Shown piece after piece: positions 18,251 to 27,661 of a DNA stretch of 64,000 nt. Source of the stretch: Chitinophagales bacterium (lineage in GTDB: Bacteria > Bacteroidota > Bacteroidia > Chitinophagales > JADIYW01); contig JAGNZZ010000008.1 of assembly GCA_017984135.1 (NCBI GenBank), positions 1-64,000 on the forward strand, in the 5' to 3' direction. The number at the start of each line of letters is the position of its first letter. Within the stretch, counting starts at the first letter, position 1. The notes under the pieces are model-generated. The model saw only the letters and a program-made list of their open reading frames with translations. It was not told the DNA's origin and searched no databases. The position numbers and the translations under genes were made by a program.

Positions 18251-18612
18251 AAAACGATATTACAACAAGAACAGATTTAGAAAGGTTGGTTTCACTTTTT
18301 TATGAAGCAATAAAATCGAACGATGAAATTAGTTTCTTTTTTACTGAAACCATAATGGTAAATTGGGATTTACACGAAACTAAAATGGTTGATTTTTGGG
18401 AAAACGCACTGTTTTTTGAAGGAAATTATTCCGGAAACCCAATTGATGCACATCATCATTTACATACGATGGAACCAATGTCGTCTTCACATTATGAACT
18501 ATGGATTAAGTTATTTAATCAAGTAGTCTTTCAAAATTTTCAAGGAGAAAATGCCAATAAAATTGTTCAGCATGCAAAAGCAATTGCACAAATTTTACAA
18601 GACAGAAATTAA
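18247..18612 (+). CDS. Group III truncated haemoglobin (copy 1)
   Basis: A 121-residue single-domain globin of the 2/2 fold. The N-terminus LERLVSLFYEAIKSND, the WENALFFEGNYSG segment and the proximal-His region SSSHYELWIKLF match group III members; it aligns with the second copy at 22011-22406. These proteins bind O2 or NO, and are often linked to NO or low-oxygen physiology. GTG at 18247 is the only start that keeps the first helix; an in-frame stop lies directly upstream. An inverted repeat covers this start. Its stop overlaps the convergent membrane-protein gene by 4 bp. Confidence 0.88.
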   Translation: MENDITTRTDLERLVSLFYEAIKSNDEISFFFTETIMVNWDLHETKMVDFWENALFFEGNYSGNPIDAHHHLHTMEPMSSSHYELWIKLFNQVVFQNFQGENANKIVQHAKAIAQILQDRN

Positions 18613-19829
18613 ACTTCTCGATGTGTAATTTGTGAAATAACCATTAAAGTTGCACTTAAAAATAAAACAATGGCAGCAAATAACAAAAGTCCATTGATAT
18701 GTGGTATTAACGTGTACGTAAAGGCTGCAAATCCTTGTAATCCTAAGAAAAACTCATTAAGCAACACACCAATAAAAAATAATACAGAAGCGATAGCCGC
18801 AAATTTAGTTGGTTTTAAATAACCTTTATAGTAGCTATATCCTAATATAAATAAGGTATAAACACCTAAAAGCACTAAATGTAAATAGGCAATTACAATT
18901 GGTCTAAAACCAAAAACTAAGGTACTTAGTGATGGTATAATGGACACCGTTTGTAGTGTAAATTTGATGGTTATGGATATTATAGATCCATAAATAAATA
19001 GGGTAATCCAAGTTGGTTTTACATTATCTTTAATACTAATAATGGCTCGATAATTTTCAGAAATTAATTTTATCCAAGTGCCAAATTGTAATAAAGTGGC
19101 AATCACTGTAATGATATACAACCAAAGTGGCAACTTAATCCATAACAGTGAAAGAAATACAGTAAAAATGGAAGTGGTAAATAATATTTTGAAGTATTTA
19201 TTTGTGTCTATTAATCCTTTTGGTAAAAGAGTGATAGCGATGGCCATGCTGGCAAAAAAGAACCATCCACTGTATTGAAAGTGTAAAAAATAATACAGCG
19301 AACCTAAATAAAAGTTATGATTGATATGTTTACTTGCTAACATATAAGCAAGATAAAATGGACCTGCAGAAGATAGTATATTTAATAGTAAACCACCTAT
19401 TGCCCATGGTTTAGAGGCATTGTCTGTTGAGAATCGTTTGGCATCTTTTACAAAAACAAACGTGAATCCAACGGCTAAAATAATACTCAAAGTAGAAAAT
19501 GTAATTGATAATGCTTTATAACCTTGATAGGTGAAAAAAATTAGCATTCCGAAAGAACAAACAAGATTGGCTATAATTAGCATTTTATATTTTTTACGAA
19601 CGGCATTTCCAAGTTGTTCAATGACTATCATAGCTAATCCACAATAAAGAAAATGACTAATCCAGCCGCTAAATGCAAAGTGTGAATGTGCGTGCAATAA
19701 GTTTTTTTGTTGAAAAAATGGAAATTCGTATGCGATTTTGAAACGCATCATCATCCCGTAAAGTGCTACAATGGCTAAGTTTATTAAACCCCACTTTATC
19801 CAGTTATTAAATGTTTTTTCATTTTCCAT
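18609..19829 (-). CDS. Polytopic His-rich membrane protein, distant haem-copper oxidase/NorB-like
   Basis: A 406-residue integral membrane protein with about 12 hydrophobic helices. Several His lie in or next to helices: H46/H48/H50 in LLHAHSHFAFSGW, H168/H171 in SKHINHNFYLG, H183 in FLHFQYSGWFF, plus AYLHLVLLG and IPHINGLLL. This spacing recalls haem and CuB ligands in subunit I of haem-copper oxidases and NO reductases, but I cannot align the full motif set, so a NorB- or NnrS-like role is only inferred. It starts at ATG 19829, directly after the Crp/Fnr stop, so both are one transcript. The location among NO-defence genes supports a respiratory or NO function. Confidence 0.55.
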   Translation of the reverse strand: MENEKTFNNWIKWGLINLAIVALYGMMMRFKIAYEFPFFQQKNLLHAHSHFAFSGWISHFLYCGLAMIVIEQLGNAVRKKYKMLIIANLVCSFGMLIFFTYQGYKALSITFSTLSIILAVGFTFVFVKDAKRFSTDNASKPWAIGGLLLNILSSAGPFYLAYMLASKHINHNFYLGSLYYFLHFQYSGWFFFASMAIAITLLPKGLIDTNKYFKILFTTSIFTVFLSLLWIKLPLWLYIITVIATLLQFGTWIKLISENYRAIISIKDNVKPTWITLFIYGSIISITIKFTLQTVSIIPSLSTLVFGFRPIVIAYLHLVLLGVYTLFILGYSYYKGYLKPTKFAAIASVLFFIGVLLNEFFLGLQGFAAFTYTLIPHINGLLLFAAIVLFLSATLMVISQITHREV

Positions 19830-19832
19830 CAA

Positions 19833-20435
19833 TTAGAAATAAATTTTATGATTAATGATTTTAATTTTTTCCATTTCTTTCATCCTTTTGATGGTACGAA
19901 TTACTGTTTCAACTCTTAGCCCTGTAATGTCAGCTATTTGTTGCCGTGTATATGGAATTATTATCGCATTCATAGAATAATTATTTTTGAGTATTTTCTT
20001 TTTATGCTTCGTTAAAAATAATGCAATTTTATCTTCCGGAGTATGGCTTACTAAAATTTGTGCATGTGCTGCTTGTTCATACATTCTTTCTGAAAAGGTA
20101 TAAATCATGCGTTCTTTTAATTCCGGATAGTCATTTATAATAGCAATAAATTTTTCTTTCTGCAAAGTTAATATAATTGATGGAATAGTAGTTTGTGCTG
20201 AATTGGGATATGGCTTGTCTAGCAATAAAGCTGGTTCGCCAAAACTATGTTTTTCTATATAAATTCCTTGAATTAGTTCTTTTCCATTTTTATTGGATGA
20301 AAATACTTTTACTTCGCCACTTATAATTTGGAAATACGACTTAGGCTGAATGTCTTCTTTGTATATGTATTCGCCTTTGTCGTACTTTTTTGAGATACCG
20401 CCATACGCTATTAATATGTTATAATCTATATGCAT
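19833..20435 (-). CDS. Crp/Fnr-family transcription regulator
   Basis: A 200-residue regulator. The cyclic-nucleotide-binding-like domain (about 15-125) has GEYIYKEDIQPKSYFQIISGEVKVF (core YFQIISGEVKVF) and FGEPALLLDKPY. A winged helix follows (about 145-200): YTRQQIADITGLRVETVIRTIKRM is the Crp/Fnr recognition helix region. There is no N-terminal Cys cluster, so it is not an Fe-S Fnr; a haem- or NO-sensing Dnr-like type or another effector is possible. It is the first gene of a pair with the His-rich membrane protein. Dyad sites at 17558 and 21968 are candidate targets. Confidence 0.88.
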   Translation of the reverse strand: MHIDYNILIAYGGISKKYDKGEYIYKEDIQPKSYFQIISGEVKVFSSNKNGKELIQGIYIEKHSFGEPALLLDKPYPNSAQTTIPSIILTLQKEKFIAIINDYPELKERMIYTFSERMYEQAAHAQILVSHTPEDKIALFLTKHKKKILKNNYSMNAIIIPYTRQQIADITGLRVETVIRTIKRMKEMEKIKIINHKIYF

Positions 20436-20600
20436 AGTATGCTAAATTATTTTAGAGCTTGGCAATAATAATTTTTGAGTAGGAAATAAGGATAATTCAA
20501 TATACTAAATTCTTAGAAAATTGGCTGAATTATTTACAAAATAAAGTAGGGTTATGTTCTAGCGTTTAAACTGACGGGATGAGCGACAAATTTTTAAAAT

Positions 20601-20638
20601 AAAGCTACATCGGTTTGTTTTTCAAACCGATGTGCTTT
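20601..20638 (-). terminator. Terminator after the azurin gene
   Basis: AAAGC (20601-20605), one unpaired T, ACATCGGTTTG (20607-20617), a 5 nt loop, CAAACCGATGT and GCTTT. The stem is almost perfect over 16 bp. On the minus strand it is followed by a T-rich tract, which ends the RIC-azurin transcript. Confidence 0.8.
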
Positions 20639-20645
20639 ATACTAA

Positions 20646-21146
20646 TTATTCAACAATAAATGTACCTTTCATCATTGCTGAGTGTCCTGGAAATGAACAT
20701 AAGAATTCATAAGTACCTTTTGCCGGTGCAGTGAATTCAATGTCGGCAGTTTCGCCACCACCAATTGTTTTGGTGTGCGCAATCACCTCTTTTTCCAATG
20801 CTTTTGGAATATAGTCATTGTCTTTTGCATCAATAGCTGCTTTTGCGAATTCGTCTAAATTTGCACCAGCTGCTAATAAAACAAAGTTATGTCCCATAGC
20901 CGTAATTGGAGCAACGCCAGAATGTGTAAGCGTTAATTTTACAGTTTGACCCTCTTTAACAACAATTTCTGATAAGTCAAATTTCATGTCATCTCCACCG
21001 CTTATCGCTACTTCAGCTATGTTGCTTTCTGCAGCAGGAGCTTCAGTAGTGGTGGTTTCTGTTTCTGTTCCTTCTGTTTTGGAACCTTGGTTACAAGCAG
21101 TTGCAAAAAATGCACCGATTGCGAAGATTAAGAATAATTTTTTCAT
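20646..21146 (-). CDS. Azurin-type blue copper lipoprotein
   Basis: A 166-residue lipoprotein with a lipobox ending FFATAC (Cys18) and an acidic Thr-rich linker. The azurin domain (about 45-166) has all type 1 copper ligands: His in MGHNFVLL, and Cys, His and Met in FLCSFPGHSAMMKG, spaced as in classical azurins. It shuttles electrons in the periplasm, for example to cytochrome oxidases or NO/nitrite reductases. I start it at ATG 21146 (MKKLFLIF), since the in-frame TTG at 21194 overlaps the RIC gene. It follows RIC by 34 bp and precedes a terminator, so the two form one unit. Confidence 0.93.
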   Translation of the reverse strand: MKKLFLIFAIGAFFATACNQGSKTEGTETETTTTEAPAAESNIAEVAISGGDDMKFDLSEIVVKEGQTVKLTLTHSGVAPITAMGHNFVLLAAGANLDEFAKAAIDAKDNDYIPKALEKEVIAHTKTIGGGETADIEFTAPAKGTYEFLCSFPGHSAMMKGTFIVE

Positions 21147-21180: not shown

Positions 21181-21906
21181 TTATACAGTTGCAAAAGTTT
21201 GCTCTAGCGCAATTGCTTTTGGAAATAAAATATTATTTTCTAAATGAATGTGCATGTGCAAATCTTCTTCGTATTCTTTTAAGAGTGCAAAAGTTACTTT
21301 ATACGTATTACAAGCATCTGCAGGTGGTGTGTAGTTATTCGTTAAATCTGCAATTTTTTGAAAACGTTCGCCTTCAGCTACATGTTCACTCATCATCATA
21401 CTAATTGGATTTTGAACGGTTCCGAAAGGAGCTTGCACGCTAGTACCATCTAATGTTGCTTTTACCATTTTTCGAATGAAAGGAAATAATATTAATTCTT
21501 CTTTTTTCATGTGCATCGTTAATTCTCCGGATGATTCTTTAAATTCGTCAAAAACAGTAATCAATTCAGGATGTCTGTCACCATGTACTTTCATTATTTT
21601 TTCTAAAAATGGCAAGATTTCTTGGATTTTTGTTTCCACATAACGATGGTGTTTTTTCTCAATATAATCGGCCAATAAATCTAATGGAAATGTATTGTAG
21701 TCGATGTTGTTGTTTTGTTGTTGTGTGGTCGCATTTTCCAATTGTTGAATAAGCGTTGCTACGTCAATGTTTTTTAATGTACAAGCTTCATCTATGCTTC
21801 TATTTCCATTGCAACAGAAATCTATTTTATTTTGCTTAAACACTGATGCTACTCGATAATCTTTTGCTACTAATTCACTAATAATTGTATCTTTTGTAAT
21901 GCTCAT
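21181..21906 (-). CDS. ric: Iron-sulfur cluster repair di-iron protein (RIC/ScdA/YtfE)
   Basis: A 241-residue cytosolic protein that restores Fe-S clusters damaged by NO or peroxide. The N-terminal ScdA_N domain (about 1-60) has the KIDFCCNGN motif; the haemerythrin-like domain (about 75-235) supplies the di-iron ligands in KKHHRYVET, VHGDRHPEL, MHMKKEELILFPF, MSEHVAEGE and MHIHLENNILFP. The length matches the family. A dyad related to that upstream of the cytochrome gene lies about 60 bp before the ATG. Neighbours (truncated haemoglobin, Rrf2 regulator, azurin) support a nitrosative-stress role. Confidence 0.94.
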   Translation of the reverse strand: MSITKDTIISELVAKDYRVASVFKQNKIDFCCNGNRSIDEACTLKNIDVATLIQQLENATTQQQNNNIDYNTFPLDLLADYIEKKHHRYVETKIQEILPFLEKIMKVHGDRHPELITVFDEFKESSGELTMHMKKEELILFPFIRKMVKATLDGTSVQAPFGTVQNPISMMMSEHVAEGERFQKIADLTNNYTPPADACNTYKVTFALLKEYEEDLHMHIHLENNILFPKAIALEQTFATV

Positions 21907-21967
21907 TTTTTTAGTATTTAATGTGATAAATTTTTTTCAAAATTAATTGTTACGTTACTTTTTGTAA

Positions 21968-21981
21968 ATGATTTTTGTCAT
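21968..21981. promoter_or_regulatory. Dyad operator upstream of RIC
   Basis: ATGAT-TTTT-GTCAT, one base away from a perfect dyad and from the ATGAC-N4-GTCAT site before the cytochrome gene. It lies about 62 bp before the RIC ATG. Just downstream is a tandem GTTACGTTAC at 21949-21958. Confidence 0.45.
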
Positions 21982-22010
21982 GTTCACAAATCCTGCTTGT
22001 TTCTATTTTT

Positions 22011-22406
22011 TTATAATAATGGTGTAGAACTGTTTTCTTGGTAATAATTTATTTTATATAAAAACATAGTGGCCATGCGTTCTCCTTGCCATTTTGCACG
22101 TTCTGCTCTAGCACCAACAAATAATGAATCTACAGTGGAATTAAACAATTGAACCCATCTGTCGAAATGTTGTTTCTCTACAGGTAATTTTGCATGTGGT
22201 ACAAATGGACTTCCAAAATAAGTATGTTCATCAAATAAAACAGTTTGCCAGAAACGATACATTTTTTCTAAATGTTGTGGCCATTTATCTTGAATTACCT
22301 TATTAAAGATATCCGCCAATAAATCATCTTTTCGTATCGTTTCATAAAACGTGTCCACCATTAATTGAACGTCTTTTATGTCTTTTAAATCTTGTAATGA
22401 TTCCAT
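22011..22406 (-). CDS. Group III truncated haemoglobin (copy 2)
   Basis: A 131-residue globin: MVDTFYETIRKDDLLADIF, WPQHLEKMYRFWQTVLF, FVPHAKLPVE and proximal-His motif EKQHFDRWVQLF. It follows the Rrf2 regulator by 3 bp, so the two are co-transcribed and the globin is probably controlled by that repressor. It aligns with copy 1 but is clearly diverged from it, which suggests an old duplication or separate acquisition. The expected function is NO or O2 binding; dioxygenase activity is not shown by sequence. Confidence 0.9.
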   Translation of the reverse strand: MESLQDLKDIKDVQLMVDTFYETIRKDDLLADIFNKVIQDKWPQHLEKMYRFWQTVLFDEHTYFGSPFVPHAKLPVEKQHFDRWVQLFNSTVDSLFVGARAERAKWQGERMATMFLYKINYYQENSSTPLL

Positions 22407-22409
22407 TGT

Positions 22410-22871
22410 TTATCGTTTACATTCTTTTAAATAACGTTCGCCATTTAGAATTGTTTTTCCAGATTTTACGCCAATGGCTAATTGCTCAATCGTAGTAGAT
22501 TCCAACATTTTTTTTAGCTCCATACGAACATTTACATATTGATGATGAAGCAAACATGGATTTTTATCACTGCATTCTGCCATTCCCATGGAACATGCTT
22601 TGTAAATCGCATCTCCATCAATGGCTTTCACAATTTGACTTAATTTAATTTTCTCTCGTTGTGCTTTTGTCATTTCAAATCCACCGTAAGGTCCTTTAAT
22701 GGATTCCACTAAGTTTTGCTTGGTTAATGTGCCTAATACTTTTGCAGTAAAAGCTTCTGGTGTACCAGTGTTTTCTGCAATGTCACCAATTTTTACACGC
22801 CTGTCTTCTTTTGATTGTATGGCAATATAAACCACTGCTTTTATTCCATATTCACATGCTTTTGAAAACAT
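22410..22871 (-). CDS. Rrf2-family Fe-S transcription repressor (NsrR/IscR-like)
   Basis: A 153-residue winged-helix regulator. The start at ATG 22871 gives the typical MFSKACEYGIKAVVYIA; an in-frame start further upstream at 22895 falls in the promoter. DNA-binding segment: RVKIGDIAENTGTPEAFTAKVL and the wing KGPYGGFEM. The Cys cluster CSMGMAECSDKNPC (C-x6-C-x5-C) should hold an Fe-S cluster, the sensor for NO or redox state in NsrR. It heads an operon with the truncated haemoglobin. A near-perfect palindrome overlaps its -33 box, suggesting autorepression. Confidence 0.92.
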   Translation of the reverse strand: MFSKACEYGIKAVVYIAIQSKEDRRVKIGDIAENTGTPEAFTAKVLGTLTKQNLVESIKGPYGGFEMTKAQREKIKLSQIVKAIDGDAIYKACSMGMAECSDKNPCLLHHQYVNVRMELKKMLESTTIEQLAIGVKSGKTILNGERYLKECKR

Positions 22872-22892
22872 CTTTTTTACGTAATTTGAGAG

Positions 22893-22900
22893 CAAAGATA
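22893..22900 (-). promoter_or_regulatory. Promoter of the Rrf2-haemoglobin operon
   Basis: On the coding strand TATCTTTG (+ strand CAAAGATA) with TTTG (+ strand CAAA, 22921-22924) 20 bp upstream. Both elements and the spacing fit the Bacteroidota -33/-7 consensus. It is one of the clearest promoters here. Confidence 0.75.
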
Positions 22901-22912
22901 ATAGCTTTTTTT

Positions 22913-22936
22913 ATTTCCGACAAATTTGTCCGAAAT
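22913..22936. promoter_or_regulatory. 24 bp palindromic operator overlapping the -33 element
   Basis: A core GACAAATTTGTC is flanked by C and by ATTTC/GAAAT arms. Only one base pair of the 12 is mismatched. Centred on the -33 box of the Rrf2 gene, it is placed to block transcription; the Rrf2 protein itself is the likely binder. Confidence 0.7.
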
Positions 22937-23002
22937 ATTTAACATACAGATTGAAGCGTATTAATTTGATATTAAAATATTGTAAATTACTGTTTAGGCA
23001 TT

Positions 23003-27633: not shown

Positions 27634-27661
27634 ATAAACCTCGACTAGAGTCGAGGTTTAT
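27634..27661. terminator. Bidirectional terminator
   Basis: ATAAACCTCGACT and AGTCGAGGTTTAT pair perfectly over 13 bp around a 2 nt centre. A T-run follows on the + strand, and A-rich sequence precedes it. It serves both the ACAD pair and the convergent acyl-CoA synthetase, whose stop codon is adjacent. Confidence 0.85.

Follow-up and report, generated by a model that had tools for sequence, protein, structure and literature searches.

The rrf2 Locus

The window, i.e., the whole stretch of 64,000 nucleotides that was analysed, carries on its minus strand a group of four genes that begins with rrf2 (22410–22871). The encoded protein has 153 amino acids with a CX6CX5CX2H motif, and belongs to the Rrf2 superfamily as judged by its winged-helix domain (PF02082, E 2.3e-27) and by TIGR00738 (97.9 bits, cut-off 73.3). 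Only 3 bp separate its open reading frame from that of a truncated (bacterial-like) globin (22011–22406; PF01152, E 3e-6), which is followed by a RIC/YtfE/ScdA di-iron Fe-S repair protein (21181–21906; TIGR03652, 242 bits, cut-off 204.7) and an azurin-like lipoprotein (20646–21146; TIGR02695, 107.5 bits, cut-off 105.1), the reading frame of which opens at 21194, with the ATG at 21146 assumed as start. A hairpin read by eye 3′ of the azurin gene on the same strand (ACATCGGTTTG / CAAACCGATGT, 20607–20633) is the probable end of the operon. The gap between the globin and RIC genes (21925–22010, minus strand) contains a partial inverted repeat, TTTGTGAACATGACAAA, possibly an extra site for another regulator.

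Upstream of rrf2, an inverted-repeat search of the window found TATTTCCGACAAA|TTTGTCCGAAATA at 22912–22937 (26 bp, no strand assigned), with two arms of 13 bp (22912–22924 and 22925–22937) that pair at 12 of 13 positions (92%) and have no spacer between them. The conserved 28-bp motif described below corresponds to 22911–22938, where the plus strand reads TTATTTCCGACAAATTTGTCCGAAATAT, and the centre of the dyad lies ~53 bp from the rrf2 ATG (22871). In the direction of rrf2, i.e., on the minus strand, a −33 box TTTG (22924–22921) lies within the right half of the predicted operator, on its inner side, at an offset that is the same in orthologues, and is followed after 20 bp by the −7 box TATCTTTG (22900–22893), so that the rrf2 promoter has the form of a Bacteroidota sigma-A promoter (TTTG, 19–21 bp, TAnnTTTG), with transcription expected to start near 22888. 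Both elements had been claimed in a preliminary description of this DNA, namely a palindrome over the −33 TTTG of an Rrf2-haemoglobin operon and a second element 20 bp beyond it, and both are present as claimed.

Taken alone, the palindrome is only suggestive and is no proof of an operator, since 0.33 palindromes of 26 bp with at least 12 of 13 pairs are expected per shuffled 64-kb window. Another one of this quality is located at 27634–27659 between convergent genes and is probably a bidirectional terminator. A search of the window for the 12-bp core with up to two mismatches gave 5 matches with 7.4 expected, and thus no enrichment, and was dropped because the pattern is too short to inform. 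A matrix scan revealed no further credible operator within the window, the runner-up scoring 8.3 bits, and GACAAATTTTTA at 20585, considered as an extra operator, fails to match the motif. The reading as an RNA element was rejected, given that the site is upstream of the predicted transcription start and has no Rfam match.

Two further genes on the minus strand lie beyond the hairpin. A Crp/FNR-type regulator (19833–20435), situated between the azurin gene and an HCO-like gene, probably forms a separate unit. A membrane protein of ~400 amino acids (18609–19829), a homologue of which is kept in 37–39 of 80 Rrf2 loci, has no match in Pfam or NCBIfam, and its profile found none among PDB sequences. 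Its predicted structure (pLDDT 90) adopts a heme-copper-oxidase fold, with the highest TM-score (0.80) to the NO reductase NorB (3o0r_B), and His 46, 48, 50 and 317 are invariant; the protein may belong to a NOR-like or NnrS-like family, so far undescribed, that the Rrf2 regulator would control.

Conservation of the Motif Upstream of rrf2

The ortholog set, obtained from one genome-collection scan, consists of the 80 nearest Rrf2 orthologues with 50–73% identity. The preliminary description had made its case depend on the palindrome being present upstream of orthologues in close relatives, and there it is found, at the same distance, in every one of them: the 28-bp motif TTATTTMGGAYAAA|TTTGTCCGAAATAA precedes rrf2 in 80/80 loci, ~50 bp from the start, with the centre of the best-scoring site 43–65 bp (once 125 bp) from the start codon. 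A few of these sites are weak, down to 12.6 bits; in shuffled loci nothing of at least 12 bits was seen among 918,356 positions. Since the orthologue sites themselves had built the full matrix, a held-out test was made with a matrix from 9 training sites (that of the window and those of the 8 nearest loci) and a threshold at the 99% point of shuffled sequence, which was exceeded by 68 of 72 held-out loci and by none of 67 control stretches located 700–900 bp upstream. G-6, A-5, T+5 and C+6 are essentially invariant, while the flanks of the motif are not conserved. The two halves covary as expected for a dyad, with a score of 0.208 that was reached in none of 500 shuffles and that falls to at most 0.118 when the halves are slid, already much reduced by a shift of one base. 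The promoter is conserved as well, all six fixed bases of the −7 box being found in 68 of 81 loci (0.6 expected) and a −33/−7 spacing of 19–21 bp in 71 of 81. At 48–50% Rrf2 identity, a few relatives (L025, L026) have a weak box or none.

Conservation in orthologous loci excludes a chance origin of the palindrome, despite the expectation of 0.33 per shuffled window, and the joint alternative of a chance palindrome or of pure promoter conservation has a negligible probability: both halves are conserved in the 80 loci, also the one that lies upstream of the promoter boxes, and the result of the held-out test argues against it too. Binding of the palindrome by the Crp/FNR-type regulator (19833–20435) is likewise very improbable. 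The gene of this regulator lies in the same neighbourhood, and many bacteria use regulators of its type to control NO genes (PMC1274295). Crp/FNR boxes, however, are far shorter than the 28-bp dyad, and a homologue of this Crp is present in only 1 of the 80 orthologous loci, that of the nearest relative (L047), whereas none of the 80 lacks the palindrome. On this distribution Crp was rejected as the binder, and with only one other locus having it the Crp gene is not the conserved partner.

Co-occurrence of Motif and Regulator

A sample drawn evenly from the class, which may partly overlap the genomes that trained the motif model, comprised 36 genomes that encode a close orthologue of the regulator and 93 that do not; the motif was detected in 20 of the former and 6 of the latter (Fisher p = 5e-9), and two of these six carry it beside a more distant rrf2. 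The motif directly adjoins rrf2 in 15 of the 26 genomes of this sample with a match. When relatives were searched by motif, 9 of 11 were positive if they encoded an orthologue with 47% identity or more, compared with 0 of 13 lacking a close orthologue. Within the window's own genome the operator is the best match (26.9 bits, E 1.5e-5), and the matrix scan found no credible site for the two Rrf2 paralogues encoded there. Since it precedes the regulator gene in some 80 further Bacteroidota genomes and also marks nitrite-reductase, NO-reductase and repair genes, the 28-bp motif is very probably the binding site of the adjacent Rrf2 protein.

More distant Rrf2 proteins in which the recognition helix reads HFIAK in place of AFTAK (L030, L032, L033 and L034) have their dyad at the same distance but changed to AAAGATAAAAAACTCTTTTT, which may be a switch of specificity that arose naturally. 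Several candidate sites were discarded: a 16-bp pattern was swamped by chance matches across the genome, its second-best match (C49:241681) lacks a suitable target gene and was lost under the full model, and C34:7971 in the window's own genome is a partial match of 15.9 bits without matrix support.

Relation of the Regulator to NsrR and IscR

The preliminary description had called the regulator NsrR-like, which holds for the gene content, since NO-detoxification genes (globin, RIC, the NO reductases qNor and norCB, and nirK) are found in the genome context, but neither for family membership, with 37.1 bits against the cut-off of 182 of the NsrR equivalog NF008240, nor for the operator, as TTATTTMGGAYAAA|TTTGTCCGAAATAA, an even-centred GGAYAAA|TTTRTCC dyad, departs from the NsrR box gATGyAT-N5-ATrCATc (PMC1274295). 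The IscR equivalog TIGR02010 is missed likewise (66 bits, cut-off 207.55). With NsrR, the NO sensor of E. coli, Neisseria and Streptomyces, the protein shares the Rrf2 fold, three cysteines in the C-terminal half, an acidic residue at the position of Asp8, a lysine in the recognition helix, predicted autoregulation and targets of the hmp/ytfE/nor type; it differs in having Glu for Asp, the spacing CX6CX5C and an additional histidine. With IscR, the regulator of Fe-S clusters, it has in common the Rrf2 fold and C-X5-C-X2-His, and the half-site elements GAC and GTC are common to the operators of both. Unlike IscR, it contains CX6C instead of CX5C, and A/A/K at the positions of IscR Ser40/Glu43/Gln44.

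Across 81 proteins Cys93, Cys100 and Cys106 are invariant, as are Glu7, His109 and, in the recognition helix, Pro38, Phe41-Thr42 and Lys44, with the qualification that the rrf2 loci were fetched by peptide patterns including MFSKACEY, so that the N-terminal invariance in that stretch is partly selected. The invariant series Cys93-X6-Cys100-X5-Cys106-X2-His109 deviates from the CX5CX5CX2H of IscR, although the C-X5-C-X2-H part is common to both. Glu7, a putative ligand, aligns with Asp8 of E. coli NsrR, which in NsrR of S. coelicolor is a ligand of the cluster (PMC9338935), and His109 matches the IscR cluster ligand His107 (PMC4432287). For Lys45 of S. coelicolor NsrR a contact with G-6 was suggested (PMC9338935), and by analogy Lys44 would lie opposite G-6 of the motif, both being invariant.

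With the IscR-type histidine conserved, the signal could be Fe-S status. Rrf2 would then bind the site in response to Fe-S or iron status like IscR, and the NO genes would respond via NO-damaged clusters. This finds some footing in C-X5-C-X2-His as in IscR, in the higher score of the IscR than of the NsrR model (66/207 versus 37/182 bits), and in an Mrp Fe-S carrier and RIC being among the predicted targets. It is nevertheless unlikely, because NO chemistry dominates the targets (globin, qNor, norCB, nirK and hemerythrins), and the combination of Glu7 and Lys44 fits Asp8 and Lys44 of NsrR rather than Arg8 and Gln44 of IscR. No isc or suf genes were noticed among the neighbours of rrf2.

The Crp-FNR-type NO regulators HcpR, NnrR and DNR, of which HcpR occurs also in Bacteroides and Porphyromonas, likewise control NO and nitrite genes, but they are members of a different protein family and recognise short FNR/CRP-like boxes (PMC1274295). 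For this phylum, Rrf2/NsrR genes next to nos or nod clusters have been named, the operator not being given (PMC6264515, PMC13386854), and no earlier description of the 28-bp motif was found in the open literature, which was the scope of the search.

Proposed Mechanism

Very probably, the palindrome serves as operator for the Rrf2 protein encoded directly downstream, which would act as an autoregulatory NO-responsive repressor that works like NsrR on an operator of its own. A dimer of Rrf2 would carry an Fe-S cluster with Cys93, Cys100 and Cys106 as ligands, joined by a non-cysteine ligand that is either His109 or Glu7 from the partner subunit. It would bind the 28-bp dyad, cover the −33 box and shut off rrf2-globin-RIC-azurin. 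NO would destroy or nitrosylate the cluster, so that the dimer leaves the DNA and the derepressed cell makes the globin and the Fe-S repair protein and, in relatives, also NO and nitrite reductases; once NO is gone, repression would be restored. Binding by Rrf2, the type of cluster, the NO signal and repression rather than activation are what we infer from the sequences, the repressor and NO parts being well supported by position and gene content.

Because the operator covers the −33 box of an autoregulated promoter, the layout is that of a repressor, and the repressor arrangement with its regulator motif, put forward earlier, gains support from the dyad lying on this box and from its recurrence in the 80 orthologues. 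Some Rrf2 proteins, such as IscR, activate certain promoters, the annotation of E. coli IscR being that of a dual regulator; that Rrf2 is an activator at this site is, however, quite improbable, given that the dyad stands on the −33 box itself and that the copies at second promoters probably reach the −7 region, positions that block polymerase. Autoregulatory repression remains the preferred reading.

Predicted Regulon and Significance

Among the immediate neighbours of rrf2 in the 80 loci are homologues of RIC (66), the ~400-aa membrane protein (37–39), the globin (33) and a quinol NO reductase (11), and further neighbours include hemerythrin-like proteins and CcoN/CcoO-like cytochromes. In Muricauda-type genomes we read the genes preceding rrf2 as nosL-nosD-nosF-nosY. 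A second copy of the motif follows the rrf2 stop in 56 of the 80 loci (within L047–L126; e.g., L103:6448), standing before RIC, qNor (qNorB), cytochrome or globin genes. About half of these 56 have AAAAAAWTTTR at a fixed spacing of 3 nt before the second operator, in which A is preferred over G at +4, with TTTATCC commoner than TTTGTCC in the inner right half. Owing to the TTTR box 3 nt before and this preference for TTTATCC, the second operator probably spans the −7 region of the promoter of the next gene.

Away from rrf2, sites are located before norC-norB (L166), nirK (L218; TIGR02376, 351 bits, cut-off 296), globin (L211, L212) and CcoN-like oxidase genes (L210, L213), a hemerythrin-PAS gene (L214), genes for an Mrp Fe-S carrier (L171, L178) and a DUF2249 protein (L174, L179), ferredoxin-cupin pairs (L216, L217), and a RIC gene elsewhere in the genome (L224).

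We consider it reasonably probable, with less confidence than in the operator itself, that these proteins form a distinct Bacteroidota-centred class of NO-responsive Rrf2 repressors with a 28-bp operator of their own, hybrid NsrR/IscR ligands and operators in pairs (the first covering the −33 box of the rrf2 promoter, the second the −7 region of the gene that follows), which would be a main controller of NO and denitrification genes throughout the phylum, a reading that covers RIC, globin, qNor/norCB, nirK, cytochromes and genes beside nos. Apart from the HcpR system, which belongs to gut and oral species, little has been described of NO sensing in Bacteroidota, and it is the control of NO and N2O turnover in an abundant phylum that is at stake. 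An operator of 28 bp with defined key bases and a regulon that includes nirK, NO reductases and nos-adjacent genes makes this control testable.

Besides the rrf2 operator, the window's own genome has just one strong site (C23:25226; L128:1501–1528), positioned 87 bp upstream of the gene for a thiamine-diphosphate enzyme resembling acetolactate synthase or 2-hydroxyacyl-CoA lyase. An operator stands 70–87 bp before this enzyme in four genomes, the own one and those of L167, L169 and L182.
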